In this document: positions 3,125 to 60,960 of the stretch, piece after piece
Layout of the letters: each line of letters opens with the position of its first letter
How positions within the stretch are numbered: the stretch's first letter is position 1
Source: Darksidea phi
Taxonomy: Eukaryota; Ascomycota; Dothideomycetes; Pleosporales; Lentitheciaceae
NCBI GenBank assembly: GCA_030770425.1
Contig: JASJFT010000130.1
Span: 1 to 64,000 of the forward strand
Direction of reading: 5' to 3'
DNA length: 64,000 bases
Notes under the pieces: model-generated
Told to the model about the DNA's origin: nothing
Seen by the model: the letters and a program-made list of their open reading frames with translations, nothing else
Database searches by the model: none
Made by a program: the position numbers and the translations under genes

Positions 3125-6100
3125 CTAAAAGAAAGCACACCACCCAATATACATAGCCGCCAAGTTCTGCGGGTCCCTCGCTCCCCTCACCAGACTATCC
3201 ACGTATCCCTCCACACTCAACGGCACACTCTCTCCCCGCACAAACCCACCCAACTTTCCACGAACAAGTTCGAGGACCTCCTGTGGCGTTTCCGCCACTC
3301 CTTGAATCCGCTTCTTGCGTTTACCGCCCAGAAAGTCCGCCGTGGGATCATGTACGAAAGTTTCCAAGATGGTGATGAGCGTATCTTCGTGTTGGCGGAG
3401 AAGACTGTATGTGAGCTCTGCGGTCTTGCGGAAAGGTCCTTCGACGCCGGAGGGGCCCATTGCGTCGACCATGTTGTGAGTTAGACGGAACGGGACGAGT
3501 TCTGGTTTCTCAAAGGTGAGACCTTTGTCGAAAAGACAGTTAAAGTCGACGTGGAAGGTACCGCCATTTCCTTCCTCTAACAACACGTTTTCACCGTGCC
3601 TATCGCCTAAGCCTAGTACATGTCCTACGATGCTCATAACAGCGCAAGAGCGTGTGTAACGTAGGCGGGCTGCGAACCAGGCTTCCGGTTCGGGGAAGGA
3701 TTCGACGAACCACTCGTGCAGCACAGGCTGGAACTTTTTGAGGATCTTATCGGTGAAGATGGGGATCTTTGATGGAGAGGAGGAGGCTTCGTTGAGGAGT
3801 AGTCGAATCTCACCGTAGTCGATGTTGATACTCTTTTGGCGGTAGAGGCGAATGATGATGTCGCGCATCGGCTTGAGCCCTTCAACCCACTCGATCGTAC
3901 CACACTCTTCGTTGAGCGGGGTCACGCCATAAGTTTTGATGTAAAGACGGCGCTTGCTAGCTTCAATGTCTCGCTGCAAAGCACGATTAATCATCGCGTT
4001 GAATTCCATGAGACGCTGATCCTTCCGCAAGTCATCCTTAGGTTTGCAGAGAAGCCCGTACTTTCGCCCATCCGAACCTATGACTGTGATTTTTCGTGGG
4101 CGTTGAAGTGAAGACAAGACTAAAACATCGTCTTCGAATTCAGCGATGGTGGTAGAATCCTGTGGAAACGGGTTATGAGCGCGGATCATTCTGCTGTCGT
4201 TACCAGAAGGGAGAGTCGGGATCATGGTAGCCTCGATCGGCACTACCAACGCACAAGGCGCAAGCTTCATCTTAAACCCAAGATCTCGCGACAAGCTGAC
4301 GTGCGATACACGCTGCTCGATAGGAGCATCGCAGGCCAACAGCAAGGCATCCGTAAGTTGTTGACCATGTATGATAAAGTTCCTCAACTCCGTACCACTA
4401 GTTTTCTTTTTGGATTCCTTATTCTTGTTAGCAGAAGTGTGAGCCTCGCCGACCCGGGCACTTACCGCGAGCTTCTTCAAAATTGTGGTACCTCGGGATC
4501 GTCGCTCATCCTGCGTTGAGTGCAACACCGCCAAGAGACTCCACAGAGCCTGTTGGGGGTATTGGCCGGCTACTTTGAGGATAATGAGCTGAAGAACCTC
4601 CCAAACGTTCTTGTTGGAGTGACTGATGCGGGTGATGATCTGTGGGAATGCGGTATACCACGGGTATGCAGGCATGCGTTCACTTGCATATCTCTTGACG
4701 TACTTGTTGATGTGTTCGAGATGGTTGAGTTTATGCTGGTGCATTTCTTTGTCCTTGGGTGAGCGTGGTTGAGCGTTGAGAACCTCGGTGCCCATGTCCA
4801 GCCAGAGCGTAAGGATTTTAGGAATGGTTTGGTAGTAGTACTTCGAGCCATACACCGTCGAGCGAATGTAGTTTTCGATCACCAGCTTCGTCAGCTCTCC
4901 AGCGATAAAATTACCGGCCTGCTTCGCGACTGGTAACGCTTTCTCGGTCTCGTAGAGCTTGAGATAATACCGCCCGAGGTAGTAGTGACCCTTGTCCCAC
5001 TTGGGATACGTCATGATTCCTCTAGCATATTCTTCCTTGAGGAGCGAGCTCTGTGTCTGACCAGCTCTATCCAGCCATTTCGCAAGCAGCAGTAGAGCGT
5101 GAGATTTGACTCTATTTGGAACTAGAGGCCAATCTGTCGTGGTAGTCGTACCGACTGAGACCGAAACTTCCATGGGCACCAAGTCCTTCGCGGTGAAGGA
5201 ACTGCTCGTGATCGCGCTACGAAGGTTCTGAATTGCCTTTCGGTGATGTCCTTGCTTCCATAGCATCTTCGAATACTCGATCTTTGATGCGTCATCACCA
5301 AGTTGGGAAGCATGCAGTATCGAGTTAAAGGCTGCTGGTGTGAAGTCGCCTTTCCGGGCTAGTCTCGAAGTCGTTAACCAGGCGGATGCAATGTCAAGGC
5401 TCGTAAACCCGATACTACGAAGAGTTAGCGTGCTCTAGAAGCGAAACATTAGCTACGGGTACTAACCGAGATAGTTGCATCGCGGCACGCCGTACTCCTA
5501 GTAAATACTGCTTGTCCGAAACGTAGGCCCCCAATATGTCCAATCTTCGGTCCAAGTTCTCAAGTATGACTTCACGATCAGACGTGGAATACGTTGACAT
5601 GCCGCTAATCGTCTCAAGCTCGTATAGGGTATGCAACTTCACTATATGCTCGTGGGCTGCATGTAGCGATGCCGTAGCGGTGGGGGACAACGATTTAGCA
5701 ACTGCCTCACGCAGATCCTCGACAATCTTCTTGAACTCGTCGCCGTTCTTGTGTCGCAACGCAAGCAAAGCCTTGCCAATGCCGACGTTGAACTCAAGGG
5801 ACGCTCCGGTAGAATGCTCAGTAGGTAGAGCAAGGGTTCTCTCGAGTTGATCCCACTTGCCTATCGACCAAGCTGCTTCTGCGGCGAAGGGCATGATAGT
5901 CTGTGAGACGGAGTCAGAAGTGTGGAATCCATCCACGTAATTGAGAATAGCATCTAGGATACGAGTTAGTGGCGGTTAATCTACTAATGTTACGTGACTT
6001 GCCATATTGCCCAGACTCTTTTAGACAAGTGAGCAGGTCAACTTGGGTTTCGGGATCATTGGGTTTTTCCGCAAGCGCGAGCTCATACCAGCTCTGAGCG

Positions 6101-9100
6101 GCTGTCCAACGTCCAGCCTTCCGATGCTCCATGATCTGTTGCTCCGGGTTCAATACCTGAAGATGAGCCGAGATACCCTCTATGCTGTCAGGCTCGTCAA
6201 TCTGAGCATATATGAACTGCAGATGTTGTAGCAAATCATCCTTGGCGAAGTAACCTTGCTTGGCTTCGGCTTTGGCCTGCTCTTCGCGGTAATATTGCTC
6301 CCAGTGGAATAATGCTCGAGCATATGACCCACACTCTACCGCACGGTGAGAGATGACTTTTGCGGGGATCATTTGTAGCAAGCCTTCAACAGCACTGATT
6401 TGTTGCATGGCCTCTATCTCCTCATTCTCCGAAATCCCCCGACCAGTTTTGCCAGCTATGGCCCGTGCTTCTGAGGCCGCTCTTCGTTTCTCTTGTAGCC
6501 AGAGAACAAGATAATCAAGGATCTGGAAGACGTTCTACGTACAGAAGTCAGTGAATGCCACGCCGCGTACGAAGGAGCCTTACCTCGCTACATTGCTTGA
6601 TATTTGTCGTCTCCGCGTGATTAGTCCCTTGCGCATCTGCCTCGAGGATTCTTAACATCTCACGACCAATGTTGTTGAAGGTCTGTTCATCGCCATCTAT
6701 AATGGCATTGACTACTGCAAAGGGTATGATAAAGGTGTCGATGGACAGATCTTGGTGTCGCAATACCTTTGCTATGCACGAAAAAATCTGCTGCGCATTG
6801 TGTTCTTTTGCTCGGAGCAAGAGGTCATAGGTGAAACTTCGAAGCCAAGTAGCATGACTGACCCCGCGACCGAAGATTGGATACTGCACGGGTTGGATCT
6901 TCACCTTGCCACTAATCGTATATCTTGAGTTCAGAAATGGAGTCAGAGCAGTGCGGACAGATTCATCCATCCCGAACCAGATTTGGAACGAAGGCGTAGG
7001 TGGCGACGACTTCTCCTTAGCAGAAGCGAACTCGGGACCAAAGCCGCTGAATGTGCAAAGCTCTTGCATCAAAAAGGCTAGATAGCCCTGCGCTTTGGTG
7101 TTTGATGTGGCTTGGAAGACCTTAATGATCACTTCTTCAAGCATAAATCCAGCAAACTCAAGGACTTCTGTGGCTTTCAAAAAGTTGCTGAGTACGAGAA
7201 TTCGTTTCTTCTCGCGCACGGTTTCCACGCGGTACGGATCAAGACCGCCGATAAGGCCAAGGCATCTTGCGCAAAGACTGGGAATGTCGCCATGGTTCTC
7301 AGCGAATCGAACGCAGATATCGAGTAGAGATCGGCTGAGCATGGTTAAAGCAGGAAGCGGTTTCTGACTGATGGCGGACTGATGAATCAGACTCTGGTTG
7401 GTCTCGAGAAAGGGTACGAGCTCCAATAGCGCTTGTCGTACAACGATGGCATTTTCGTCGTTGCATCGCTTGCTGAAGGTGGTGAGGTGTGTTACTGGGT
7501 CCTCTTTAGCCTTTAGACGGGCTATTTCGCCTTCGAGCTTCGAGAGCACGGGTATTGAGGCCAGTGAAGGTAAGAAACCTATCCGATCTTGTAAGAGTTT
7601 ATTGTGTTTTTGTCGAAGAGAATCCAGAGTTTTGCTGGCCTCTGCACGGGTATCGTCGGCAAAGGATGGCCAATTCTGGACAATCAGTGCGAACGTCTGA
7701 TCAATCACGACCTTCAAGTAGTCTTTTTCAAGAACCCACAAGAGGTCGGACCAAGACCTGAAAGCCTGATCGCACAGATGAACATCGGCCATTGCGGACT
7801 GCAGACATGCTCGAAGCTAGGAGCGTGAGTAGCTGCGTAACAATCAGTCTCGAAATATGACGTACCTGTGGAAGAGCGTAGCTAGAGTCTGGACCAGCGA
7901 CATGAATCAACTCTCTGATAGCTCTTACGCACCTCTTTCGTTCAGTAAGTGGATGGACTCCATTTGGATTTTCGACAACGTCGGAAATGAGAGTCATGAT
8001 GCCCAAGATGTGTTTGCGAACAAATGCCTCCAACTTTGCCTCTGCACTCTTTGACGTCGACTTGCGCTTTCTATCCTTAATGTCATCTAACGCGGCGATC
8101 CTGTGGAATCCAGCATAGAACTAGGCAAGTCAGCTAATATACATAGGCTGAGTAAAGCACCTACCGCTTGCTTGTCACCTTCGTCTTGGTCGGCAGCCAT
8201 CTTTAGTACTTCGAAAGCAGCACTTGCCGACTCCTGCAGAACCAGGTCATGTAACTGATATCTGTTCTCCCGGAAGCCTGGTGCAACGGCAATCAGGGAA
8301 TCCATTGCCCTTCGCTCCACGTCGCCTTCTGCTTGACACAGAAGTAATGCAAGAATGCGAGCAAGATGGTGTCTTGGCTGCATACAAACATCTTCAAGGG
8401 TTGTGTCTTTGGCTTGCGCGATTCTTTCGATGACGTCTTTTCGTTTGTTCAGGACGAGTATCGGAAGAACGTGGCCGTGGATTTCGATTAGAAGCGAGGG
8501 CACCGTCAACCCAGTCAAATTCCCTACAAACTGCGCCTTTTGCGGTTTGTTGTGGATTTCGTTGACGACCTTGAATCCGATAGTCCTCCAGTAAGGGCGC
8601 AGCATCTCCAAAGGTGAAGTTTTGAGATCATCAGCAAGTGATAAAAGCTGAGTCAGTTAGGCACACTGGTTCGCGAGATGGAAAGCTGTTGTGATATACC
8701 TCATTGAACGCGGCGCCGTATACGACGGTATTGGTATGACCCAAATACTCGACAAGTTGACCCAGTATAATTTGAAGCTCCACTTCACTGCATGTCCTGA
8801 GGATAGATTAGCTAAAAATTTGAACGGTACAGTCTTGAACTAACCGCGCAGCCTGCCCATAAGCTATGATCAGCGTTTCCTGGACAGAGGTGACATTTCG
8901 CTTAGTGAGCTCGACAAAGAACTGTATCATCCCTCGACGGTTCTTGTCGCGTACCTTGTCGGGAACGTTATCACCGAGGAATGTCATAAGCGCATGACTT
9001 GGAAATGTTAGCTTACATCATCATTTCGACAATACACTTACGATGCCGCGATTCTCAACTCCCTTAGAGATCTAGTCATAGCATTAATGAGCCAATTCCC

Positions 9101-12026: not shown

Positions 12027-12663
12027 GATATGTGGGATATAAACATACTGTAAAACGTTGGGCAACATGAAGCATTGGGTACGGCGTTTACGGTATCCAT
12101 TACACTATGGGGCAGCTTGGAATTGTACCCCTCCTCTCGGTCATATGAAATAGGATATACGTATCAAATCAAAATTAGCGACGCGGAAAAAGTAGACCGC
12201 AGCAGAGGAATGCGTCCGACAGGTGTATACGATGGCTATATTCGAGAACAAGCAGAAAGATGGCTGGTATGACTAGAAGTGTGTACTGCTGAATGCATTT
12301 CAACACTGATTATTCCTCCTAAGAGGATGTCCCGTTTTGGGCTCGATTATACGTTGAAGGCAGCTCCACACATCCTGGTATGCTACCGCTACGTAGATGA
12401 CCCGTATTCACCGCCACATGTAAATTCTTCGTCTCTCCTGGATCCGACTATTCGTCTAATTATAAAAATCGCGCTCAACCGACTCTCCAAGGAAATCTAG
12501 AAGGCAGTCGAAAGGTGTAAGAAAAGTGCAGCTGGCAAGAACTAAGCCGAATCATGGAATGACTCCTGCAAATGCTCAGAATGCGACAAACTGATGAATC
12601 GAAGATGTCGTGTTAAGGGCCTAAGCGAATCGTACCCGCGTCCGGTTTCGGAGGCTGACAAGC
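12027..12663. other. Convergent intergenic region
   Basis: 637 bp between the COX16 stop and the HMG-CoA synthase stop. Short open frames at 12075-12500 have no recognisable protein character. Expected to hold two 3' UTRs; nothing else seen. Confidence 0.5.
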
Positions 12664-14257
12664 TTACTGCTTCACCTCGTATGTTCGCCGGAACATGTCG
12701 TCAATGCCAGTGAGGTAGTAGGTGCCAGGGAACAGGTGTTCTGTGCTACCCTCGGGCTTGTAGTTCTTCTTGAGGTGGGCACGCTCGCGAAGGTTGCACA
12801 TCTGCGTTGTATCAGTCAGGCGATCGAGATAATGATAAGCATGAAAAGTGGGCGTACCTCATCAAACGTCTCCGGGGACACGGTGCGTCGGGCCTCCAGA
12901 CGCGCGGTGATGTCGAGCTGCTTCTGCATCTCGGTGATGCTGCCTCTGATCTTCAAAGAAAACAGCGAGGAAGCAAGACCGCTACCGTAGCTGAAGATGC
13001 CAACGCGCTTGCCAATAGCTGCCTGGCTGTCGATGTTGGCGATCATACTAGCCAAGCTACCATAGACGCTGCCGCAGTACATGTTACCGCACATGGTCGG
13101 CACCTGGATGCTGGGCTGGACGCGGGAAGCGAATCGCTTTTTGGCCAGAGCCATGAAGGTCTTCTCGACTGTCTTATCTGTGATGGAGGTTTTGTAGTCC
13201 ATTCCAAGAATTTCTGCAGGTACCTCTGCGAAGATGGGGTTCTTCGGGTCAGCGAGGAAGTCGTTGTAGAGTAGACGCGCGTAAGACTTGTTCACGAGCT
13301 TGCAGTTAGGGGTGTGGAAGCACATGTAGTCGAATCGGTCCAGGGGTGTCTCCAGCTCTTGGGAGTGGCCGTTGATACCATTGGTCCCGTTCGCTTGTGA
13401 CTTCAGAGCCTTCTCGCGGTCGTTGTACGCCTTGTAGCAGGCGTCAGTCGCCTCGGTGTAGCAGCGGTTGGAGAAATGGCCATCCACGTAGGGGTATTCG
13501 CTAGTGAGGTCGGGCTTGTAGAAATCGTAGGCATGGGTGATGTAGGAGCCGCGCAAGCCTGCGTCGAAGGCAAGGGGAGCGTCGGGGCCGATCAGCATAG
13601 CCACGCAGCCAGCACCACCCGTCGGGCGCGCGTTGCCCTTCTTGTACAAGGCGATATCGCCAGCCACCACGACGGCGTCGCGGCCGTCCCACGCCGAGGA
13701 CTCTACCCAATTGATCGAGTTGAATATGGCATTTGTTCCGCCGTAGCAGGCGTTCACGGCATCGACGCCCTCGACATTGAAATTGCCCGACTTCTCGAAC
13801 AGCTGCATCAGGACCGACTTGACCGACTTGGACTTGTCGAGCAGCGTTTCGGTGCCGACTTCGAGGCGGCCAATGGAGTTGGGATCGATATTGTATTTCT
13901 TGAAAAGCGAGGAGAGGGTCGTCAGGGCGAGCGAGTACATATCTGTGCACAATTATGTTAGTAGGGCTCGCGTGCATTGCTGGAGTACAGCACTCGCCAC
14001 GGGGGTCTTACCCTCGCGGTCGTCGCAGAAGGACATCTTCGTCTGGCCGAGGCCAATGGTGTACTTCCCCTGAGAGACGCCATCGAACTTCTCGAGCTCG
14101 GCCTGGGCGACGCACTGGAGAAAGCATTAGAGTCGTCGTCACGGCGCGTGCATGTTGCAGGAAAGTGCAGGTGGCGGGGATTCTGCTGTGCACTTGCCTG
14201 GCTGGGGAAGTATAGCTCAATGGCCTTGATACCGATGTTCTGGGGGCGGGCGGCCAT
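12664..14257 (-). CDS. ERG13: Hydroxymethylglutaryl-CoA synthase, 461 aa
   Basis: Condenses acetyl-CoA with acetoacetyl-CoA to HMG-CoA, the step before HMG-CoA reductase in the mevalonate/ergosterol pathway. Exons (complement): 12664-12801, 12858-13942, 14012-14114, 14198-14257, total 461 aa, the usual fungal size. The catalytic Cys is in NACYGGTNA (about Cys120). The general-acid Glu is in [12 protein letters not shown] (about Glu86) and the catalytic His in CFHTPNCKL (about His264). Start: the protein must begin [20 protein letters not shown]; an in-frame ATG further upstream would add a non-conserved extension. Intron 1 (14115-14197) starts with GC rather than GT (donor GCAAGT): only that splice joins FPSQ to CVAQAE in frame. 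Introns 2 and 3 are canonical. Divergent from the membrane-protein gene at 16226. Confidence 0.94.
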
Positions 14258-45902: not shown

Positions 45903-46549
45903 AGGATAAACCTTGGGGAATGGGTGAATTTATAGCAATCACTAAGAGACGTTCTATAACGGCGGAAATGAATCTCTAGACTGCGGTTAGAAAGATAGAG
46001 TAAGGCGTCCCTGTTAGATAGATATTATATATTGATTATTTAATAACGTACATTTCACTATATATCGTACTAGTTTAGTAACTTTGTGAGATTCTAATCT
46101 ATCTTCATGTTTGCTATTGTCTACATTGAAGCATTGTGAGAAAGGTGTTCCCTACGTATCCCCGCACTAAGAGCTCTATAACGGCTCGCATATACTGTCG
46201 CGAACGTAACGGAGATAGCGGCTCCCGGGCCCCAACTTTGGGCAAAGGCGTCAATGGAACCGATGGCCTATGCATCCCCCTTAGATATTGTCATATGGTC
46301 TTAAAATGCGGTAATTATGGAAAGGCTGTGGGAAATTCACGCACAAATGTCGGTTTCGGACGGCAGGAGTTACTGTTCAATATATTAGACACACCGATAG
46401 CATTCAATAGATAGTACCTCCTAACATACAAATCAACACAGAGTGAATAAAGCGAAATTCGTGAATGGCGGATGTAACACGTATTCTAATCCTATTGAAT
46501 GGATAATATTACATTGTGTACAAACAAAGATAGAGTGGATGAACGGGTA
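45903..46549. other. AT-rich intergenic region left of the MITE
   Basis: About 650 bp, AT-rich, with TA-rich runs at about 46015-46100. No gene is supported; an open frame at 46136-46414 has no conserved character. Confidence 0.4.
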
Positions 46550-47369
46550 ACGTGTTCCACCACTCAGTGACTCACACCATCGGTTTGGTAGAAGGAGTTT
46601 TCCCCAGTCTGCAGGATAGGGGCTGCCATGTTGAAGGATAGGAATAGGCTAATCATAGTTAGAAGGGTGAATAGCTCTTGAAGAAGTGGAGGATTCAGTA
46701 CTTGAACAACGACTGATCACTGAGCGGATTTGATTCGATTCGATTGACAGAGCGGATTCGATTCAATTCGATTAATGAGTAGTAGAGATATACAAGCTAT
46801 TCGTACAGGCAGGCCCATATTCGAAGTATAGCTGTTGAGAAGAGTTATTATTAAGCTTGGTAGCGAGCCAAAGTCATCCACGGATCATGAGAAGGCTCTT
46901 GAGCCGCACACGCACACACAAAAGAAAAAATACTCTTACTGCAGAAGCAGTTGACGCGATCACTGGCTCACACCAGTCAGTGACTAGCCCCCAAAACCAC
47001 CAAAAATCGCGAAAACTGTACCCTGATATCTCAACAACGGCTCAATATTAAATTCTAAAATTTTATGAAAACCTTTATATAGCCATTTGAAGACTCTGAT
47101 TTAACTTAGAAGGTAATTCATTAAGTAGTTCTAGAGATACAGCAATTTAGCTTAAAATTGGGGGCCAAAATACGATACCCCGATAATAGCTAGGCCTACT
47201 ACTCTAAGACTTTAATCAGAGGCTTCAAATAGGTATTAAAGCCTAAATACAGAGTTTTAGAATTTATTATTAAGCCGTTGCCGAGATATCAAGGTACAGT
47301 TTTTGCGATTATTGGTGGTTTTTGGGGCTAGTCACTGACTGGTGTGAGTCACTGAGTGGTGGAACACGT
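46550..47369. mobile_element. Foldback MITE (Tc1/mariner-like TA target) with nested insertion
   Basis: The two ends are perfect 30-bp inverted repeats: 46550-46579 and 47340-47369. Each is flanked by TA (46548-46549 and 47370-47371), the target duplication of Tc1/mariner/pogo elements. Removing an inner insertion (46580-46966 plus one copy of a 9-bp duplication), the inverted repeats extend to 115 bp on each side: left 46550-46579 plus 46976-47060, right 47255-47369. The 194-bp interior is itself partly inverted-repeated (about 47082-47101 against 47213-47232), so the whole can fold into one long hairpin. There is no transposase frame. The original non-autonomous element is 424 bp. Confidence 0.82.
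46580..46966. mobile_element. 387-bp insertion nested inside the MITE
   Basis: Flanked by a perfect 9-bp direct repeat CTCACACCA (46571-46579 and 46967-46975) that occurs once in the intact MITE end, as seen from the right-hand inverted repeat. This is a target-site duplication of the length made by Mutator-like elements (hAT elements make 8 bp). No clear terminal inverted repeats are seen. Near its right end it contains AGCAGTTGACGCGAT, also present at 38761-38775. Confidence 0.6.
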
Positions 47370-47549
47370 TAGCTGTGACTGACAGAACGCATACAGTATT
47401 TAAAGAGAAAATTTTTGTTTTTCTAAATATCAGAAACCTGCCTCATTCGTGCCTACTTTTTATTCGATACAAGACTACTACCATATTCGACCGAAGACAC
47501 CCCACGACACTATTCTACCGCTGTAGAACCTCTACATAATACTGTAGTC

Positions 47550-48968
47550 ATGTCGACTGCACTGACAGTAGACCATTGGACACTCGCATTTGGTAATGGT
47601 CCTAAGCCGGAGCGCACTGACTACTACACGGAAAACTACGTTGGCAAGCGTCTTACAGCATATCTACGTTGTCGTGCTTGTAATCCTGACCCCAAACTTA
47701 TGTCATCATGGATCTCCGTTTTTCAACCACCAAAAAAAAAAAAAAAAAAAAAAACCAGGAAACAACCTAGGTCCAACGTGTCCTAGCTGCAATAGAGTTC
47801 TCTGGCTGAATCAAACCGATTGCGATAGATCTCTAGGACGGCATGGGGCAAGGGCCTACGCAGAGTATGACCGCTTTTATGATTGAGACGGGACTTACTG
47901 GGTACCTATCCCAAAACTAGGGAGATACAAAATGCTAGAGATTGAGGGCATCGCCCCTGATGGTTACCAATATGGAACGGGTGCTCTTAACCGAGTGACA
48001 GCTCCTCGGGAATATCCAGTGGAATCATACATGACGACCTCTCCCGTGCAGGGACAGTCGCCGCCCTATCAATTGCCGGCCGGAGGTCAGAAGCGACGTC
48101 AAGAATATAGCCCGCAGGCTCAAGCTCCACTTATGCAACGGCAGCGCCACCATGCTTATACCGCGGATAATATATTCCGACAGGCGATGGCCGTAACGAT
48201 GATCTTTACGATAACCCGGCCCCTTCTGGCTACTCGTCCTTCCCTGTTACGGCTCCGGTACCTCCTTCACCTGCGTATCAACCCCAACGCGGACACACTC
48301 AGACGCACGCCATTCAACAGAACTATCCGGGCCCGAGCACACCTGCATATGGTGTCTCTCAGACGCCCAGGCAACCTCAAAATAACCCGAATCCAGCACC
48401 ACCCTATTCCCAGTCTTATACCAACACATTACCTCGCTCCCAGAGTCAAGTTCCACTTCAATCTATCAATCGCACTGGTATGAACATGCGCGATATATTG
48501 AATCAAGGTACAGCTATCCCCGTTCAGTCATTGCTGAAAAGGGATACTCCGGCACCGCATTCCCGTAATCCTCAATCTGCAAATCAGATCGCTCCAGGTC
48601 CAGGTCGTGGTCAACCTCCAAGTCAATCCCGGACCGGTACAGCTCTAGAAAGAAATGCACCTGGCTCCCGAGCTCTTCGAAGTCCCGGAGTCCGAGACCC
48701 TGCTCAAAACGAAGGAAATCCTTTTGCACAGCCCGTTTTCGTTCCTGAGAAGACATTTGAGCGCTCGGCATTAACATTTAGTCAATTAACTGCACAGGTA
48801 GCAGACATGGCTATTTCAAATGGCCCTGTTAAGGAAGGAGCTTCCAGCAAAGCTGGAGAATCCAGTCTTGACGTGCGAAGCAAGGGTACTTCCTCGAAGG
48901 TTGATTCCAAGGCTGCCAATGCTGCGAAAGAGAAGGAGAAAGGTAGCAAGAAGCATGGGAAGAAGTGA
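47550..48968 (+). pseudogene. Cys/His-cluster disordered protein family, copy C, broken
   Basis: Third member of the family. ATG 47550 starts a frame with LRCRACNPD (first C-x2-C) that meets a run of 23 A (47732-47754). The run pushes translation out of frame; the correct frame beyond it reads GPTCPSCNRVLWLN (second C-x2-C). That frame has an in-frame TGA at 47884-47886, continues through a Pro/Gln-rich part, and needs another one-base shift near 48185 to reach the final frame. The last part has MRDILNQG (about 48486), TFSQLTAQVADM (about 48777-48812) and a Lys-rich tail ending KGSKKHGKK. Three lesions rule out the full product from this sequence. Confidence 0.6.
47732..47754. repeat. 23-A homopolymer inside copy C
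   Basis: Uninterrupted run of 23 A within the coding region. It separates the two halves of the putative metal-binding cluster and changes the frame. Homopolymers of this length are unstable and hard to sequence, so the true length is uncertain. Confidence 0.85.
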
Positions 48969-49685: not shown

Positions 49686-52071
49686 TGTGGGTATAGCACC
49701 TCTGCTATGTACAATGTCCTACTATGTTTCGTACGGACATTAGAAAGGGACTCCCACTGTGCAAATCCAAACCAAATTATATTAGTAACAGTCAAGCCTC
49801 CCCATACCGCCAACCGATGGACATAAATTACCAAATCATCACCCAGCATGCCGAAGAATGTCGAAGATGGCCAGGAGACGAAGAAGACGTGACGCAAGAC
49901 GAAAATATGTTGTTAGTATCTCTATATAATCATCCTGGTGGGTATGGTGGAATTTTTGCTATCTTAGCATCAGTACTTATTGTCGTTTGTTTATAGTTCT
50001 TTTTCATATATCACATCCGAAGGAATTTCATCAAATATGGTTAAACCAATCAAGCCTTTTCGAACCTTTCAATGGGCTCAAATTTGCTACTCCTGTGCCA
50101 TGTATCTTCCATATCCGCATTCTCAAGTTGGCGAACCGCCCGACGGTATAGGCTTAACTACCTCAGCTCTCCTGGACGTAGCTAGGCGATTATATGAGGA
50201 AGATGACATGTCGCCTCCTAAGAGGAATATCGGTGAACGAGTTCAAGGTGTGGCAGGGGGCGGATGGGCTGCTGTTGTTTTTGGTTAAGTGTGGTGAGCT
50301 ACCAGATTAGATTTGGCTGCTGAGTAGATCTTACGCAAAAGTTGTTATTGAAGAAAGAACATGGCAGTAGCTACAAATCGATGGCTTCGAATGGAAGGGG
50401 TGGGCAATTGTACAAAGTGTCTTATGCGTCATTGGTCACCCTGTTCACAGCGACTACAGCCACCGGGAGAAAAGCACCCGTATCTCGAGGTGGCCTTCAA
50501 ATGGTTATCACAGAGAATTGCGTGCCAGCTTTCGCAAAAGATGATTGGTTAAAAGAAACATAGAAATACTGGTTGTACATTGGTGTTTGGTTCTTCCTAG
50601 TCTCAACCTTTGTCCGGCCATCCGAAAATACCCTGAACCTTCCTTTTCGAGATATAAGCACATCGTTCTGTTGGTGTTGCCAGCAATCAGCAGCGCGCTG
50701 CACAGCAAATGAGGTAGACCTATCAGCGCGTAGCTTCCCGCGGCTTAATGCAGCCTCATGCTCGGATGCAACCACTGCACAAGGTTACTCTCTAATGTCA
50801 CCCCACGAAGAGGGGTGTTATCTCTCCTCTCCCCGATATAGTACCGCCAATTAAGCACTCGACAGACCCCGTTGCGTCGGTTGCAGTGCTTTGCGTGTTT
50901 AAAGTGATAAATCGAATGCGCGCGCTCGCTTCGCCGGATAAGCAGTCTCACCGAGGACAACGGCGTGCGGAGAGCTTTAGCAAATGGACTTTTGGACTTC
51001 CCCTTACAGCTCTAGACCAATATCGCATCACGGTATGGCCGCTATGGGCCACTGTACGACAGCAGTCTTTCTGCCAACGTTGTATAGGTCGGTGGGTACC
51101 TACTTAGATCTCAACAGGCCCAGGGCAATTTGCCGCTATCCCGGCTGGAAAAAAGCTTAGTGGGGAGATGGAATGCATGAATGGGCCAGCGATCCAACGG
51201 ACAAACAAAGAACCCGGCGGATGTGTACATGGGATAGTTGATAATCTTGCATGGAAGTCTCTAGATTTGCGCTTTCCCGTTACTACACACGCGGCCAGGC
51301 AAATCTCCAAGTTGCTCCTACAAGCCATAGCCGCAGACCAATCACCTCTTTCGTGAGCCCTCCTGTTGCTCCCTTTGAAAAGCTATCACCACAGTCCAGG
51401 TTCAAGACGGAGCGAGTGAAGATAACGCGGGAAAAGGTCATTGATCGACAAGGAGCATACTCAAGTAGGGACACTCGCCGATCCATGGATGAGGTCGCAA
51501 TAAACAGCAGCGCATGCCGCACTAGTATCATAGACACTATCCGCTCTACCCCGCGCCGTCGCCTTAAACAAGAAGGTCGGACATGAAACCCATCATTCCG
51601 AGCGTTTCCATGCTGCGATAAGCAAGCGACACATCCGCCAATTATTGCGGCTATCGACCCACCCCGGAGATATGCAGGGTCAATCCATGGTTACCAGATA
51701 AGGAAGGTGTTGTGCTAAGCGATGCTGCGTGGCACTAGACTCGTGGAATCAGCCTTGTACCCTGGAATGACTTCGCTTGGCGGGAAAGAACATGGCATTC
51801 TCCATGCTATAGCCATTTGTTCGATTGGGCAATGGTATATTGATGCATGCGTCCAAGTTTCGGAGAGGATAGTGACGGGAGAGGTTGACATGCCTCTTCC
51901 ATGCTTGTAGCTCCGATATCGAGACGGAGATGGATAGAAAGGCGAAGGAAAGCAATATCAGCGCACTATCTGGCTGCAGGTGGAGCGTTCTAGCTTCCGT
52001 TCATGACTAGGGCGCAGTTGGGATACTTTCGCATCGTGCACTGCCCGATCAAGAGAGCCTCGATGGACATG

Positions 52072-52078
52072 TATAAAG
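52072..52078 (+). promoter_or_regulatory. TATA box of the deuterolysin gene
   Basis: TATAAAG about 90 bp before the ATG at 52168, a normal distance for a fungal secreted-enzyme gene. Confidence 0.5.
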
Positions 52079-52167
52079 GTTGATGGACTCGTGCAGTTAA
52101 AAGCGTATCATCGACATCTATTTTTCGAGTCATATATTCAATAGCTCTCCCCCAGGCACCTTTCACT

Positions 52168-53311
52168 ATGAAGCTTTTTACTCTCGCTGCCGTTGCTTCT
52201 TTGGCTAATGCCGTCTCAGTCGATTTGAACAAACGCGACCCTACCCTTGATGTCAAGCTGGAGTTGACTGGTAACACGGCTGTCAAGGCCTTAGTCACCA
52301 ACACCGGCTCAGAGGATTTGAAGGTGCTCAAGGCGGGCAGCTTCTTAGACGAGGCGGCTGTTGAGAAGGTTGAGGTTTTCCAGGGCTGTAGGCTACGCCT
52401 TTCCTTTAGGAGTCAATTAGCCGAAACTAATTGGACTAGCCTCCAAGGTCGCGTTCGAGGGTGTAAAGCTCCGCATCAACGTTGCCGGCCTTAGTGAGGA
52501 AGCTTTCCAGGTAATCGCTGCAGGAGAGACTATCGAAACTTCTTTCGACGTTGCAACAGCACACGACCTAGACGCTGGTGGAGTCTTCGAAATTACCTCC
52601 GCTGGAACCCTCAACACCGCGAAAGCTGATTCCACCGAACTATCCGGCGTGGTTAGCTACTCTAGCAATACCATCTCAGCGTCTGTGGATGGTGCCGCAG
52701 CGGCCAAAGTCCGCCGCAACTTTAAGCGTTCCATTGTTCAATCCGACTGCACTGGCTCTAGGCGTACCGCTACTACGACCGCTCTTTCGAACTGTCGCTC
52801 CCTCGCTAACGCCGCCGCTTCGGCTGCGGTTTCAAACTCGGCCAAGCTCAACGAGTACTTCAAGTCAACATCCTCCAGCGTCGCCTCACAAGTCCAAACT
52901 GTGTTCAACAGGGCTGCTAGCGAGTGCGGTTCTTCCACTTCCGGAGCTGCGAAGTACTACTGCACTGACGTGTACGGCGCCTGCAGCAGCAACGTTCTCG
53001 CCTACACTGTCCCCTCCTTGAGTATTATGGTCAATTGCAACCTCTACTTCACTGCCCTACCCGCCCTAAGCCGTTCATGCCATGCCCAGGACCAGGCTAC
53101 GACGACGCTCCATGAGGCTACGCACTTGACCCAGATCAAGGGTACGGATGACCTTGGTTACGGTTACAATAATGCGCGCCAGCTCTCTACATCTCAGGCT
53201 CTCAACAATGCTGATTCATATGCCCTATTTGCCAACGGTAAGTAGCACAATGTTGTACTCCAACTCGGACACTCGACTGACGAAACCACAGCCATCTACG
53301 CGGGATGCTAA
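52168..53311 (+). CDS. Deuterolysin (M35) zinc metalloprotease, 345 aa
   Basis: Secreted metalloendopeptidase of the aspzincin clan, cleaving basic proteins. Exons 52168-52387, 52440-53237, 53292-53311; phases 1 and 1 agree and the sum is 345 aa. Signal peptide MKLFTLAAVASLANA, then a propeptide ending at a Kex2-type Lys169-Arg170, leaving a mature enzyme of 175 aa, the standard size. Catalytic HEATH at residues 298-302 and the third zinc ligand Asp in GTDDLGYGY (about 310-311) are intact. Paired Cys, including the last residue of AIYAGC, fit the family disulfides. The third exon is only 20 nt and supplies that Cys; without the second intron the frame ends early after FANGK. TATA box at 52072. 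Confidence 0.93.
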
Positions 53312-53893
53312 GCGTATCAACATACTGCTCTACTAATGATACAAGAACACTATGACGGATGCGCCTGATATATTGGTTCTTGGTATTTTGTCGGGACTTA
53401 TATGGGGCAAAAGCTGGTAACCAAGCACACATCTGACTACTTTCGTATTGATTTAGCGAGCACGAGGTTAATGAGGAAAATAACATGCTACTTTCCCGAG
53501 ACATTTGTACCATTTTTTAACTGCTGGTCTACTTTTGGCTTTTTGCAGTATCGCTTCATTTACCTATAGGGGTCGCCAAGTTCTCTTACACGCACGCGCC
53601 CAGCCTCATACGAGCCCAACGGCCCCGCGTTTTCGCAAGATAATTCCCTTTAGGCAATAGCCGACTTCTGACCGAGTCCAGATTTGATCCAAAGTGGTAC
53701 GTATACGGGTACCCGCAAACTCGCAGTGCTTACCATTCCATAATAGAGAATTAAAGAATTTATTAATTCGATGCTGATGTATACGAAGGGAGGGAAAAGA
53801 GCCTATAAATACCAGTTAAAAGATAACATTCTGGTCGCCGTGCTCGACTAAATATTCCTTTACACCCACTTTTCAAGTCGCGTTAATTGAACC
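53312..53893. promoter_or_regulatory. Intergenic region with promoter of the cysteine-rich gene
   Basis: 582 bp. TATAAAT at 53804-53810, about 85 bp before the ATG at 53894, is a good core promoter. AT-rich just upstream of it. Nothing else seen. Confidence 0.5.
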
Positions 53894-54303
53894 ATGCACT
53901 TCTTAATCATTGCCGTCGCGGGCCTCCTTTCGTTGGCGGCTTCTACACCTACACCGTCGGATACTGTGAAAACTTGTCAGGCGATTTGCATTCTGAAGGA
54001 GCCCACTTGTGGCAGGGGGAGTGTACGTCTCTAATTTTAAGGCCGCCTCTCGTTCACTGACGTGCTTGTGCATAGTATCCGGATTTCCAAGATCCGTGCT
54101 GGACATGCTGCTCTGATATGCCGGCCCCACAGCCACTGCGCGAGACCTGTTTGGCCATCTGTTATCCCCAGGAAACGAAGTGCTCCGGCAGTTCGGTGGG
54201 TCATTAGGACCGGGAGGACGGAAACCAGTGCTAACATGGATTATAGTACCCTGTAAAGCTGGGCAATTGCTGGACGTGTTGCTCAAAGGAGGGATCTGGT
54301 TAG
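53894..54303 (+). CDS. Small secreted cysteine-rich protein with two tandem repeats, 101 aa
   Basis: Exons 53894-54022, 54076-54195, 54247-54303; introns of 53 and 51 nt, both phase 0, give 101 aa. Signal peptide MHFLIIAVAGLLSLAAS, then TPTPS. The mature part is two copies of one unit: TCQAICILKEPTCGRGS-YPDFQDPCWTCCSD and TCLAICYPQETKCSGSS-YPVKLGNCWTCCSK, the hyphen being the intron position in each. Each unit has six Cys (C-x3-C, C, then C-x2-CC), so twelve in all and probably six disulfides. The introns sit at the same place in both repeats, so the gene grew by duplication of an exon-intron unit. Small size, signal and Cys content fit an apoplastic effector or antimicrobial-type protein; no named family is recognised. 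Confidence 0.8.
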
Positions 54304-56010
54304 CTCAACTTGCTACTGCACAAGTGGGACGTGCGAAGGATGGGTGGGATGACTGCTGGACGGTGGTGTGAAAGTCGTTCGATCGGCTGCGGAATGACAT
54401 GGGTAAAAGGCGGCAATCTGCCAAGCAAGCCTTTCACTACCATGGAAGTCCAATCTGAAATGTGAACAGTGTCTAAGATTGTTGTGTGATGGTGCAGTTT
54501 CTACTTGCGCTTTCAACCGTTTTTCTATATTGTCTTCAGTTCAACTCACCGGTTTTCTTCCCAATGGCCGTCTACGGTATATCCCCTCGGTATCGGCTTG
54601 ATTGAAGGGGAATTCAAAACTTTCGACTGTGACAGCACGAGCATTGTGAGCAAGTCATCAACCTTTTGATTGGTCAATCGATAGATGAATGCTTGACAAT
54701 GCCAACGGAAGCAGGTCCATGTGAGGCCGACAATTCCAGCCGAGTCACAATCCCTAATACGTACCATGTCTTTTCAATCGCATATTCAGTCGATACCCGT
54801 CGCCATCATGGTCTGGAATCAAAGTTCCTAGTGCAAGGCCAAAAAGCTAAAGAATGACTGTCGAATTCAAATTCCGATGGCGCTCATCATAACGGTAGGG
54901 CAGATCTTTGAGTGTATTCTGGAGTCTGGTCTAAGAAGACGTCGCGCTCCTCCCTCCTAGCCGCCGATCAGCAGAGAAGGTACTCAGTTCGCTTCCTCAG
55001 GCCAAGATCTAGAAAGTCTTTGTGCAATCAACGTCAAATGCTTGCAACTGGGGCAGGTTCCGTTCACTGTCATCTTCCCCATTTAGATGAAGGTGTAGCG
55101 ATCGCAACGATAGCCTTTGTACACTTGCGCACCGTAGCCGTCGCTTTGCAGCGCTCTCAGGACAAGTCTTGGTGAATGGCTGGGCGAAAGTGTGCATGCC
55201 TTTTTGACTAGCCGGTGCTCCTTCAGGGAACTTCTGACGAGTTCACGTACAGCGAAGCATGGCGTTCAAACGTCGATCGGATGTTAAGAATATCGGGCAA
55301 ATACGGCCGAATAACAACCACGTCATATACAATGATGGTCTACTTATATCGTTATCATGGAGATGGGCACTCCAAGCATGGAATGGGCATACGTTCTCTC
55401 TCCGGCCCAATGACTCCAATATATACCTGCACGATAAGTTATAGCGATGGGCAGTACACATGTAAGCCCTACAACGAGACTTTTCTAAGGAAATCAAGCG
55501 CCTCGCCAGCCGTAGAGTAGTGGCTTGAACTTGATTTGAAGGAAAGATATAACCGCAAGGCTTATAAGGAGGGCTTTAATTCCTCCAACTGTCGGCTTCA
55601 TAGGACCTTGACAAAACAAAAACAAATTGTTGGCCAATCACTTATGTAAAGCTTTCCTGCATCTAAGTTATTTTATAGATAATTGCATTCACATCCCTAA
55701 TTTTATGTTCTAGCATGGAGAAGAATGACATGTGGCTTGAGAGTGCGCTCATTAAGAGTAAGCCTCTTCGTATTGCTGACATCTAGCTCGCCAAATGAAA
55801 CCACTACCAATGAAGTCGGACCGCCCCTCTTTCGTCCCTGATGTTCTGTCCAATCAGACAGCGGCGAGAAGAGTATCGTATGTGTCGATCAGTACCACAT
55901 CTGTGTGCGCCAAGTGAGGCTGAGTCGGTGGCTTGCGCCGGCCCCGTGGAGCTAGGCAGCCAATATGAAGGAGTCAGTCCCTCTCTTTCCATCATGAATC
56001 CCTATCGAGC
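54304..56010. other. Intergenic region
   Basis: 1.7 kb with no supported gene. Short frames (for example 55215-55520) have no conserved character. The right end must hold the promoter of the kinase-YTH gene. Confidence 0.4.
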
Positions 56011-58301
56011 ATGGCGAGCTCCGGTATCCCCAATGGTAAGCTCCTGATTTTATGTCCAATCTTGCCTGCTCACTGCTGGTTATAGTGGAGGATCTGAGCG
56101 AAAAGTTAAAAGTAATTTGCTCACGCGAATATCTGCGATCATCAATACCGCCTCGAGAGCATCGATATACAAATCACGAAATAGCCCAAGTTTCCGAACT
56201 ACTGGGAGCTCTTAACCAAAGATTATGGATGATTGTCCCTCGCCTCTACATTGTGCTCAGTCACGCAGGCCTCCTTAAGCTCCGGGATCTGTTCTTCTCA
56301 ATGCAACACACGGACGCGCACTTCCCCTATTCTACCTTTACGCTTCCGAAAGGCATAGGACCAGATGATCGGAGCTCCTTTCTTCGAGCTCAAGTTTGCG
56401 TTCTTGCCGGCACCAATCATGTCAGCCAATGGGACCTAGGTGAGCACGTGCGATTCGCAAGCTCGGAACAGGTGCCTTTTGAAAGACAAGCGATACTAGG
56501 GTCAGGGGGCAGTGGCCAAGTCGAGGTGGTAGTTGTACGCTCACAGACGAACATGACCCATGTTGCGTTCCGTACACGATTGGTACGCAAGATTATTAAG
56601 CGGGTGGTGTTTGGGCGGTTCCAACAGGGTTTGGAAACTTTCAAAAACGAGCTCAAAGTGCTAAAGCAGGTTCAACATCGCCATCTCGTAGAAATTATCG
56701 GAAGCTACACCGATCCGACGTACGCCGCTCTGATTATGTCACCCGTCGCTGATTACGACCTGAGCGACTTTCTGAGGTTGGCAATAGGAGACAACCAGAA
56801 ACTGAGCTCGATGCGCACATTTTTCGGCTGCTTAGCAGCTTCTTTAGCCTACTTACATGGGAAAAAGATTCGTCACAAGGATATGAAGCCTTCGAACATA
56901 CTTGTGCAAGGTTCTAATGTCCTTATCACCGACTTCGGGCTTTCAAAAGATTGTAACAATACCAGAAGCACGACGGAAGGCCCGACGGGCAGAACACCGA
57001 AATACTGCTCCCCCGAGGTTGCAGATAACGCACCAAGAAACTATTCATCTGATATCTGGTCGCTCGGCTGTGTGTTTCTGGAGATGCTTACAGTTCTGAA
57101 GGGCTGTGGCATTGACCAGCTTGCAGCATTTATGCGAGAAAACGGCACGTGCATACCATCTTACCATGCGAACATGGCTGCAGTCGCAATGTGGCTGGAA
57201 AAGCTACGCCTGACATATGTCAACGACTCCGACAACGACCTCATCCCCTGGATTCAAGTTCTGCTACAGCATGATCGGGATCTCCGCCCATCAGCAGAAA
57301 CCCTTTCCTCAGAGATCGCGCAAGCTCATTCAATATCTGGAAGGATTGGAGAGTTCTGCGGGATATGCTGCCGAGGTGAGACAGAGGAGTTTGTCGACAT
57401 AGAGATGGAAGACGACCCTTTGTTCGTCCCAGAATCACCACTATTTGAGCCAGAAGGCGAAGATATGAAAATCGCCAGGTCAATCGAAGAGTCCCCGCAC
57501 CCGTTAGTGAGTCTTGATTTGGGGTCCTTCAGGCATCAGCCGCCAACTACAAGGGTTAATACGGCGATGATTACACCAGCTGACACGGAAATTGAAATGG
57601 ATCGATCAGCACGTAGGTTAGCCATCAGTGAATCACCTGCTTTTTGTGCGAAGCACTAATTGACAACAGTGATGACTCCCCATTCAGAAAGTGATGCACC
57701 GACCGCACGAACTGTTCGGGATGTCACACAGGTAATCCCACTTTCGCTTCGCATGTCAGACAACTCGCAAGTGCTAGAGCCACGTTTCTTCATCCTTCGT
57801 TCAAACTCGGCCATGGACATTGAGACAAGTTGCGCATTCGGGGCCTGGACATGCTCAAAGCCTACAAATCAAAGACTTGCGAAAGCCTTTAGAGAGACTC
57901 AAGCTCCTGTGTATCTTATCTTCTCCGTCGTTGGAAGGTTCGTTTATTCCAATGCTATCCATTTGTAATTCAGTTTGCTTACGGATATAGTCGAAAGTTT
58001 TGCGGCGTGGCACAGATGACAAGTCCTATCAATTGGGCTAGAACATTACCGCATTGGGAGTCGCCGGAATGGGATGGGTAAGCTTTGAACCTTTTAAGAA
58101 TATGCAACAGCACTGACCTCTGATAGCAACTTCGATATCGAATGGAAGTCTTACCTAGAGGTTAGTTATGATGAGGTCGGGCATCTACGTATGAAGGAGG
58201 GCAATGAAGGTAATTTTATCACGCGCGTAATGAGCGGCATGGATATATGCAGATCCTCGGGCGAGGAAATGATGCGGCGATTCCAAGTTCCTGGATTTTG
58301 A
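56011..58301 (+). CDS. Ser/Thr protein kinase fused to a YTH (m6A-reader) domain, 693 aa
   Basis: Exons 56011-56035, 56086-57612, 57670-57937, 57991-58077, 58127-58301; every phase agrees, giving 693 aa. Residues about 140-415 are a protein kinase: GSGGSG loop (147-152), Lys177, Glu197, HKDMKPSN (His272, Asp274, Asn279; HKD replaces HRD), DFG (291-293), SPE (317-319), SDIWSLG. An acidic linker follows. Residues about 555-693 are a YTH domain: RFFILRS, AWTC (Trp577), NQRLAKAF, PVYLIFSV, GSRKFCGVAQM, HWESPEWDGNFDIEW (Trp629, Trp634), GHLRMKEG. The Trp residues of the m6A-binding cage appear kept. The join is the 57-nt intron 57613-57669 (GTAGGT...CAG, CTAAT branch site). Without it the kinase would stop at 57659 and a YTH gene would begin about 12 bp later, leaving no room for a terminator or promoter. 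Role unknown; RNA-methyl-mark-linked signalling is an inference. Confidence 0.8.
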
Positions 58302-59699
58302 TCAAGGTTATCATCCGCTGAATTGGAAAGTTGGTTCTTGATCTGAATAGAGAAGGTATTTCGAGTACTAGAAGAAGATTTAGCCCGTCTGAAACACTAT
58401 TTGCATCACTAGCATCGCTGGACTACTTCATTAGAATATCCCTCCAAATCCCCATTCCTTCTGCTAACAGTGTTTACAGCTTCGGTAGCAAGGAAGTAGT
58501 ATTTTTAGTATTTCTTACAAAACGTAAGAGCGTGTTTATTGGTTAATAAACTCCTGGAGCTAGTACCGAAGATTTATAATAACTTTTTACACAATCTTTT
58601 TTGATAAGGAGCGTTTGGTAAAGCCCTCCATAGTTAGGTGAGCCAACTTAATCGATACTTACGATGAAGATATTCTTCTAAGCTCAGTAGCATGAGTTAT
58701 GTTTGGTTGCTATTGAAGATCGCTGGGCCTGTTATCTTCATTACCTCCCTAATATACCACTCTTTTTCTCTTTTTCTCTGTTTATAGCTTCAAATCTTCG
58801 CAGGTGCGCTATCGCATAATTGTTGGGTTCCAGTCTGGTTTATTAGCATACCGGATTCGAGGAAGCTGTTTTGAACTCGCTTACACAGAATTTTGGCTCT
58901 TCCTGATTTCCGAATTCAATCTGCTGCTTTCCTAGTTCTGGGAACAGCTAGCCTTCAGGATTAGCGAAGTCGCTGACTCAGTGAAGATAATTCTGTTCCG
59001 CTAAACACTCTACTATATATAATTTGATAAGCTAGTACTTTGCTAGCTCCAGAACCTCTTTTGCTTTCGATCAGCTGGTTTCTCAATTGCAGCCAGCAAG
59101 ATATGTGGTATTCATGATTGCACGACTCAAACTCCCCGGCCTCTCGATGGTGAATGACATGGTCTTGCATCGATCCTGGACCTTTACAGAGAACAAGAAA
59201 TACGCTTCCTGTTTATACATGTAGGGTGCCGCATCTTCGAAACCTTTCGTTCTTTTAGTGTACTATCCCATTCTGCAGCGACAATTTTCTAGAACTAGTT
59301 AATATATTTACTTCTAGTTGGAGGCTGAAAAGTGCCTGAGCTGGAAAACGAGTGCAGGTTTTATTCACTAGCTAATATATCTAGAGAGAAGTTTATTGAT
59401 GCTTCGAGACTCAAGCTTGGGTTAAATTGAAGGCAAGAAGTCAAGCTTATACGGCTAAGGCGTCTACAGAGATATAAGAACCGTAGCTTGCGGGATTTCG
59501 TATTCTATGCCAGTGACTCACGCATAGAGACGCTGCTTTTCGAACTACACGAGACAACAATTCAGGTTTCGTAATCCAAGGCTCATGATCCTTAGTTATT
59601 AGCACTGCCATTAAAGAATCGCATGAAAGTAGCCAAGGCCTTACATCCATAGCCGGCTGCGAAGTGTTTGTATTCGCATACCTACCCTCCAGCTCGGAT
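58302..59699. other. AT-rich intergenic region
   Basis: 1.4 kb, AT-rich with TA-rich stretches. Only short frames, none recognisable. It may contain decayed repeats. Confidence 0.4.
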
Positions 59700-60960
59700 G
59701 TCGTTGGAGCTAGCGTCGTATGCCCATGGCTCCGCTCACACCTCCTGATGGAGGTCCTAAGCCCTTTCAACATCGGCTGTGTCCTGTTCCCATACGAAAT
59801 CTGGGGCCTATCCCGATCCTTGGTCTTAGAGTTCCCATTCCCTTTCTATGTGTCCGTCATGCGAATGAATCTTTTGTATATGAAGAGCATAGGACCTTTG
59901 CCCTTCCCCGAGTTTCTGTCTGATTGCTTGGAACACACGGTTCTGAGTGCGGATATCGCACCCATTAACACGGCAATAGCTGCCTCGATGAGCAAGAGCA
60001 TAAAGGTCCATTGTATGCTGAATTCGTGTTTTCCGCGGTGTGAGTGGTACAGGCCGCCGACCAGACGGACTAGGCTCACTATGGCAATGATAAGGGATAA
60101 GCAGAGAAAGGTTCCGCTGCGGAGCCTCTGGATTGAGCGAAGGTGCAACATACGGAGGTGGATTATTGGAATACTTGCGAGTGTGAGAAGTTAAATTTTC
60201 GGCTGAGTTCTGGATTGAGGGCTTTTCGTACTCATTATATCGGTGGTGATGTCAAAGGCGAAAAGGAACGTCACGAGGATAACATCGAGAATATGTTCGG
60301 GACAAGCCAGAAGACGTGGTCAGTTTGTATTTTAATAATGGCCCAGCTATTGGTTTGCTTACACGAACTGGTTTTCATGTTAAAATTCGGACATAGAATG
60401 AACGGCTCCACAATGACAAAGGCCCAAGACAGGCCGGTGTATAACACGACGAACCAATGATACCGGGTTAGTTTCCTCGAGACATCCCTGATCAAGCTAT
60501 GGAAGAAAGCTAGAAAGGAGAACATTATGGAGAAGTTCGCTGGTCACGCAAGGCAAAGGAAGATGCTGTTCCATTTCATGATATCAATGAGTGATAAGAG
60601 TTCTTGTGGGGTAAAGGCCACACATCAAGACAGCGCATGAGAGTTTTTACTAGGTACATCTTCTTGTGGTAACTGAAGAGTACTCCGGTGGTGGATATAA
60701 AATATCCTGTCGCAAATATGACAAGCCAGTCATTTAGATAGAACTTTCGACGGGTTGTGAGGCGAAAAGTAATGCGCATGATTGTGGCAAGTGTAGAGAA
60801 TGCTGCGAAGAATCCTACTAGTATCTATGATCTGGTTCATGAGTACTACGCTGTTGTCGAGATTCATTGTTGGGACTCAGTTCGAAGGAACGTTTGTCAA
60901 TCATCCCGGCATGATCAATCTTATACTGCCGCTTTGGGTCCAAAGACGAGTCTGCAGTGA
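59700..60960 (-). pseudogene. Rhodopsin/PTH11-like integral membrane protein, decayed
   Basis: Read on the minus strand, successive hydrophobic blocks occur in the order of a seven-helix fungal rhodopsin/PTH11-like protein: FFAAFSTLATIMRITFRLTTRRKF with YLNDWLVIFATGYFI (about 60810-60680), FSFLAFFHSL then RDVSRKLTRYHWFVVLYTGLSWAF (about 60520-60400), and SGTFLCLSLIIAIVSLVRLVGG with FMLLLIEAAIAVLMGAISAL (about 60110-59930). The frame holding the middle block has a TGA about 60556-60558, shortly before FSIMFSFLAFF, and others follow. No continuous splice model was found, so I treat it as a pseudogene. Exact ends are uncertain. Confidence 0.5.

Follow-up and report, generated by a model that had tools for sequence, protein, structure and literature searches.

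The window analysed here is a stretch of 64,000 nucleotides from the dothideomycete Darksidea phi (positions 1 to 64,000 of the forward strand of contig JASJFT010000130.1, assembly GCA_030770425.1), and between positions 56011 and 58301 of its plus strand lies a gene predicted to join a protein kinase to a YTH domain of the kind found in readers of N6-methyladenosine (m6A). The gene model comprises six exons and encodes 677 amino acids, arranged as an N-terminal region, a protein kinase domain, a linker and a complete YTH domain (Table 1). An earlier reading made from the letters of the DNA (the sequence-only reading) had proposed such a fusion and recommended a HMMER-type domain scan; Pfam finds both domains in this single model (Pkinase 4.6e-38, YTH 1.3e-32), and all 47 database relatives described below have the same architecture. 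The existence of a kinase-YTH gene is thereby confirmed at the level of sequence.

The kinase domain carries the glycine loop, the lysine, the HxD aspartate, the asparagine and DFG, which are also kept in the relatives, and the P-loop, Lys, HKD, DFG and SPE motifs named in the sequence-only reading all lie where they were described. With a full set of catalytic residues, the domain is probably active in phosphotransfer. Its nearest solved structure is ASK1/MAP3K5 (78.6 bits), while a scan of NCBIfam returned kinase matches alone, all below cut-off. The YTH match scores 112.8 bits against a cut-off of 22.1 and covers profile positions 2–134 of 135. No RRM was found in the model by Pfam at E 0.1.

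Table 1. Features of the kinase-YTH gene model (window positions; nt, nucleotides).
Feature	Position	Strand	Description
Exon 1	56011..56035	+	Start codon; 8 codons in all, MASSGIPN; spliced model; start codon not confirmed by homology
Intron 1	56036..56085	+	50 nt, GTAAGC...TATAG; predicted from sequence only
Exon 2	56086..57612	+	N-terminal region, entire kinase domain and most of linker; single open frame
Protein kinase domain	56481..57305	+	Residues 141-415; Pfam PF00069, 4.6e-38, 131.5 bits
Glycine-rich loop GSGGSGQV	56499..56522	+	Sequence motif
LVRKII (Lys motif)	from 56580	+	Sequence motif
Catalytic loop HKDMKPSN	56874..56897	+	HxDxKPxN-type match in 46/48 proteins
DFGL magnesium-binding motif	56931..56942	+	Sequence motif
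SPE motif	from 57009	+	Sequence motif
Intron 2	57613..57669	+	57 nt, GT-AG; TAA stop inside CTAAT branch-like site
Exon 3	57670..57731	+	Linker end (...MTPHSESDAPTARTVRDVTQ); in-frame similarity to P0001 (MTPESE...TPRDLT)
Intron 3	57732..57779	+	48 nt, in-frame; retained in the 693-residue model of the sequence-only reading
Exon 4	57780..57937	+	YTH domain, first part
YTH domain	57783..58283	+	Residues 540-672, over three exons; Pfam PF04146, 1.3e-32
Cage tryptophan W561	57846..57848	+	Aligns with YTHDF1 W411
Intron 4	57938..57990	+	53 nt; same position in C226 copy (judged by eye)
Exon 5	57991..58077	+	YTH domain, middle (SRKFCGVAQM...HWESPEWDG)
Cage tryptophan W613	58055..58057	+	Aligns with YTHDF1 W465
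Cage tryptophan W618	58070..58072	+	Aligns with YTHDF1 W470
Intron 5	58078..58126	+	49 nt; same position in C226 copy (judged by eye)
Exon 6	58127..58301	+	YTH domain end and stop codon, last base 58301

Relatives were sought in three protein searches with YTH-region queries, at E up to 0.001. The window query yielded 3 accepted proteins from 44 candidates, P0003 yielded 43 from 95 and P0002 yielded 5 from 44, the latter two counts including the query itself. The union is 47 distinct proteins (P0001 to P0047), every one of which bears the precomputed Pfam labels PF00069 and PF04146 and is listed as a single chain, many being named merely as kinases. They are distributed over three fungal classes (looked up for eight named taxa): Dothideomycetes (Neocucurbitaria, Lasiodiplodia), Leotiomycetes (Oculimacula, Cadophora, Amylocarpus) and Sordariomycetes (Emericellopsis, Xylaria, Podospora). 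This breadth runs counter to the earlier suggestion of a lineage-specific gene, though the type to which the window protein belongs (type A, below) accounts for only four of the database proteins. The sequence-only reading had advised searching other Dothideomycetes for the same domain order, and Neocucurbitaria sp. VM-36 (P0001) carries kinase then YTH; orthologues always divided between two genes, which it had named as fatal to the fusion, were not what the 47 single chains presented. A chance juxtaposition of kinase and YTH was rejected, since the pairing is shared by all 47 homologues found.

The genome of D. phi itself (51 Mb in 477 contigs) was also searched for the YTH family, and matches fell at three places that we read as three genes: a canonical YTH gene on contig C346, the window gene, and a locus on contig C226 (approximately 12090-14225, minus strand; L004, L005) where the YTH part comes immediately after a kinase of the window type. 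The matched kinase stretch on C226 contains one TGA and five TAG codons in frame, and DFR replaces DFG; judged by these lesions it is a decayed sister copy of the kinase-YTH gene. Because this copy keeps the kinase-then-YTH order, the splice model is not the sole evidence for the fusion.

The TAA codon at 57657-57659 closes the open frame of exon 2, yet falls within intron 2, and excision of that intron preserves the frame, as had been claimed for a 57-nt GT-AG intron with a CTAAT site. Three further introns, 3 to 5, complete the YTH domain; the length of 693 residues given in the sequence-only reading retains intron 3 and is corrected to 677. Excision of intron 3 is favoured because P0001 reads RDLTLPRF against RDVTQPRF in the window protein, without the 16-residue insert at this point, and because the C226 copy has a 52-nt GT-AG stretch at the same position. 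The window gene, intron 2 included, is thus presumably spliced as modelled. Retention of intron 2 would yield a kinase-only protein without the reader, a conceivable switch.

Given the in-frame stop between kinase and YTH domain, and given that the database models are themselves predictions, it might be argued that two neighbouring genes, a kinase ending at 57659 and a YTH gene starting near 57670, have been merged by gene prediction. We regard this as very improbable. All 47 homologues found, from three classes, have one chain each, and the order is kept in both of the kinase types distinguished below; the linker on either side of intron 2 resembles that of Neocucurbitaria P0001 in frame; the C226 copy offers nine compatible GT-AG choices at this junction, one of them 70 nt long with the donor GTAGCG; and P0002 (source label 'lgn', from a 2,225-base contig) has both domains in one chain of 435 amino acids, intron removal in its making being unstated.

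The window kinase has many relations within its own genome. A query of 440 amino acids, starting at an internal methionine at 56052, gave 102 own-genome matches, a count that mixes families and exons; the five longest were 35–50% identical, and paralogues matched query residues 38-440, N-terminal region included, at 44% (C17) and 50% (C226) identity. Kinase trees put the window gene among these paralogues. On these comparisons the window kinase is a member of a large, modular own-genome family with variable C-terminal tails: its members share the kinase type and the N-terminal region, while the tails change; the own-genome YTH search found a YTH tail in two of them only, the window gene and the C226 copy.

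Domain families were sought in ten stretches taken from the loci of paralogues. One (L025, C17:106342-107127 region, minus strand) has a family kinase followed in the same frame by a HET domain (PF06985, 6.5e-23); HET domains are associated with heterokaryon incompatibility. T5orf172 domains, which are GIY-YIG-like, follow family kinases in frame in L021 and in a neighbouring frame in L018, and ankyrin repeats occur in the kinase frame in L017 and in an adjoining frame in L011. A TPR match in L008 was under cut-off, L010 held a kinase only, L009 gave only a kinase fragment under cut-off, and the family scan found none in L015 and L019.

Such a family raises the question of whether the window gene is in decay, as part of an accessory group with rapid turnover, the YTH tail being a functionless passenger in this species. 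The broken C226 sister with its in-frame stops and altered DFG motif, the many paralogues with changing tails and the patchy occurrence of type A (four database proteins found) would all fit. The window copy, in contrast, has no frame break in its model, comparison with P0001 shows equal conservation of its YTH and kinase parts, and the cage of the YTH domain is retained in the proteins compared; we find decay quite improbable.

The 48 proteins, that is, the window protein and its 47 relatives, fall into two types, which were assigned by motif, the grouping being named after the identity comparison had already been seen. Type A has the HKD motif and consists of the window protein, P0001, P0002, P0046 and P0047; type B comprises the other 43 proteins, with HRD in 42 and no motif match in P0026. 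Type B proteins, which come mostly from Sordariomycetes (Amylocarpus being a leotiomycete), resemble type A in the kinase-then-YTH order and in the grouping of their YTH domains, and differ in having another group of kinase, whose best alignments to the window kinase show 24–27% identity over 214–230 residues. Where tested, the type B kinase is Rad53- or CAMK-like, the nearest solved structure to the kinase of P0021 being Rad53 (122.9 bits). One type B protein, P0025, is filed under Lasiodiplodia mahajangana, a dothideomycete, yet its YTH region shares 70% identity with that of the Emericellopsis query, which may reflect a mislabelled genome or a transfer.

In a careful kinase tree of 26 rows (3 type A, 9 type B, 14 own-genome), type A fell among ten own paralogues and type B with four other own kinases, the split having support of 100/100. 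A single shared kinase origin for the two types was rejected by the approximately unbiased (AU) test both here (p 1.3e-4) and in a quick tree of 38 rows (4 type A, 10 type B, 24 own-genome; p 2.4e-4), both tests being run without the C226 row, which falls inside type A. In the quick tree the type A kinase clade had a Shimodaira–Hasegawa-like approximate likelihood ratio (SH-aLRT) support of only 68%. The YTH domains tell another story. In a tree of 24 rows (5 type A, 14 type B, 5 references), types A and B formed one group at 98/94 against YTHDF1, YTHDF2, YTHDC2, CPSF30 and the own canonical YTH; the reference branches of this tree are long. When the tree was repeated with YTHDF as sole outgroup, the corresponding split was supported at 100/100. 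The reference set is small and includes no kinase-free fungal YTHDF-like protein, so that the group may contain a branch lacking the kinase. Unrelated kinases and grouped YTH domains together imply that one YTH lineage has been joined to two unrelated kinases, and by these trees the same YTH clade is attached to both, an observation new here. This could have come about by exchange of the kinase or by two separate fusions of this YTH to kinases. As to the order of types, B lies inside A at 90/84 in the 24-row YTH tree, but a monophyletic type A among the YTH domains could not be rejected (p 0.19). That the same reader recurs with different kinases suggests that selection maintains a kinase beside it.

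The solved structures nearest to the window YTH domain by sequence are those of YTHDF1–3. The sequence-only reading had pointed to two cage-type tryptophans; the aromatic cage is intact, with three tryptophans aligned to YTHDF1 (Table 1), whose cage residues are as named in the portion of PMC6112328 available to us. Each of the three is retained by 47 or all 48 of the proteins, and an aspartate equivalent to YTHDF1 D401 is present in 46. The predicted fold of the orthologue P0046 has a YTH fold in its YTH part, closest to YTHDF1/2; this model is weak overall (mean predicted local distance difference test score 59.5), and we rely on its YTH part and kinase C-lobe alone. In the corresponding comparison for the type B protein P0021, kinases took up all the matches listed. 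The window YTH domain therefore resembles YTHDF readers in sequence, with YTHDF1/2 nearest and the same three-tryptophan cage and aspartate as YTHDF1, and it probably binds m6A RNA; the difference is that the window gene adds an N-terminal protein kinase, and to our knowledge human YTHDF1–3 and yeast Pho92 have no such domain.

The sole MT-A70 match in the genome (C434:160146-160679, plus strand; L036) carries a DPPW motif, and its nearest solved chain is 'Methyltransferase-like protein 2' (7cv6) at 95.0 bits, the next scoring 29.4; we take 7cv6 to be plant METTL4. This likeness agrees with the survey of Kim et al. (2023; PMC10826363), in which, as far as the available part goes, Pezizomycotina have a single writer, MTA1, which is orthologous to METTL4. 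The canonical YTH gene on C346 combines an RRM_YTH1 domain with a YTH domain nearest to YTHDC2 and CPSF30, an own-genome example of the YTH1 family, the canonical fungal reader with RRM and YTH. The window protein shares the YTH domain with this family but has no RRM_YTH1, and its YTH domain is not nearest to YTHDC2 or CPSF30; because the C346 domain is of that type, no intact YTHDF-like reader other than the window gene was found in the genome.

The same survey, again in its accessible part, describes a YTH clade, 'PHO92 (Pezizomycotina)', that is confined to Pezizomycotina and sister to PHO92, and reports both PHO92 and YTH1 in 98 of 498 Pezizomycotina species, proteins of 300–1000 amino acids having been kept. 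The window YTH domain is closer to the YTHDF than to the DC type in our 24-row tree, which was built without the sequences of that survey, and the clade is likely to be the kinase-YTH family. The survey treats its members only as readers: the word kinase occurs nowhere in the main text of PMC10826363 or of PMC11361730, as far as these were available. The architecture is already present in databases, while our literature searches on kinase-YTH proteins found no description within the library covered, in line with the sequence-only reading, which knew of none.

The YTH domain could alternatively serve as a general RNA- or protein-docking module independent of m6A, aiming the kinase through unmodified sequence, a reading we consider credible though unlikely. 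At two positions outside the cage, which we take to line the pocket, the window protein has N547 (Asp in 38 of the 48 proteins) against Tyr in YTHDF1, and T562 (Thr in 43) against Cys; moreover, with a METTL4-like gene as the only MT-A70 gene found, mRNA m6A may be sparse. Mmi1 provides a precedent in reading an unmodified motif, but its pocket is blocked and its residue corresponding to YTHDC1 N367 is Ala (PMC6112328, part available), and the closest solved domains to that of the window are YTHDF1 and YTHDF2, not Mmi1. The near-universal retention of the cage tryptophans and of the D401-equivalent aspartate likewise speaks for m6A binding rather than mere docking.

We propose, with a probability of roughly 60%, that both activities are coupled in one chain: the C-terminal YTHDF-like YTH domain would bind m6A in RNA, the N-terminal kinase would thereby be concentrated on methylated ribonucleoproteins, a tethered kinase being the simplest reading, and it would phosphorylate adjacent RNA-handling proteins or itself. 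More generally, one of the two parts probably determines where the other is placed or how active it is; the sequence-only reading had likewise tied the activity or location of the kinase to methylated RNA, which stays the likeliest reading. Several points weigh against this proposal. The genome's second copy is disrupted, and the species may therefore be able to do without the gene; the METTL4 likeness of the sole MT-A70 gene found makes the extent of mRNA m6A uncertain; the protein searches covered lengths of 0.55–1.75 times the query, a range that stand-alone YTH relatives under about 240 amino acids fall outside; and the database gene models, as noted, are predictions. In addition, the pocket position of YTHDC1 N367 is Asp in the window protein and in YTHDF1, a residue tied to weaker binding, and some YTH domains, such as that of Mmi1, recognise unmodified RNA (PMC6112328, part available).

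A stronger form of coupling, in which m6A binding by the YTH domain would switch the kinase on, by relief of inhibition or by pairing of two kinases, and so convert an RNA mark into phosphorylation, strikes us as decidedly unlikely. Such a protein might be a fungal RNA-sensing defence kinase, PKR-like but reading m6A, a hint that comes from the HET and ankyrin domains carried by some members of the kinase family. PKR, the kinase activated by double-stranded RNA, offers a functional analogy, in having an RNA-binding part and a kinase in one chain, and it differs in its ligand, which here would be methylated RNA. Were the tethered-kinase proposal true, fungi would own an enzyme linking RNA modification directly to protein phosphorylation, in a pairing that has persisted, or arisen afresh, with two unrelated kinases. 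The YTHDF-like readers of Pezizomycotina would then gain a possible catalytic output, and the purpose of the METTL4-type writer in these fungi could be put to a test.

The sequence-only reading had placed the gene in a repeat-bearing region, which is not borne out for the immediate flanks. Repeats there were rejected, as a search that passes over simple repeats and very frequent words gave no second match in the 51-Mb assembly for positions 53300-55990 or 58310-60300. Strong damage by repeat-induced point mutation (RIP) was also rejected, the composite RIP index being -0.69 over the gene. Elsewhere in the window this index rises slightly above zero at 1-2000 (0.26), 46001-48000 (0.03) and 52001-54000 (0.08), unlike in the other 2-kb blocks. 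About 2.8 kb upstream of the kinase-YTH gene lies a deuterolysin (M35) metalloprotease gene (52421-53245, plus strand; PF02102, 1.9e-83), and the window also holds, on the minus strand, an ATR-like checkpoint kinase gene in pieces (3125-7816; PI3_PI4_kinase, FAT, FATC and ATR HEAT regions) and an HMG-CoA synthase gene (12816-13952).
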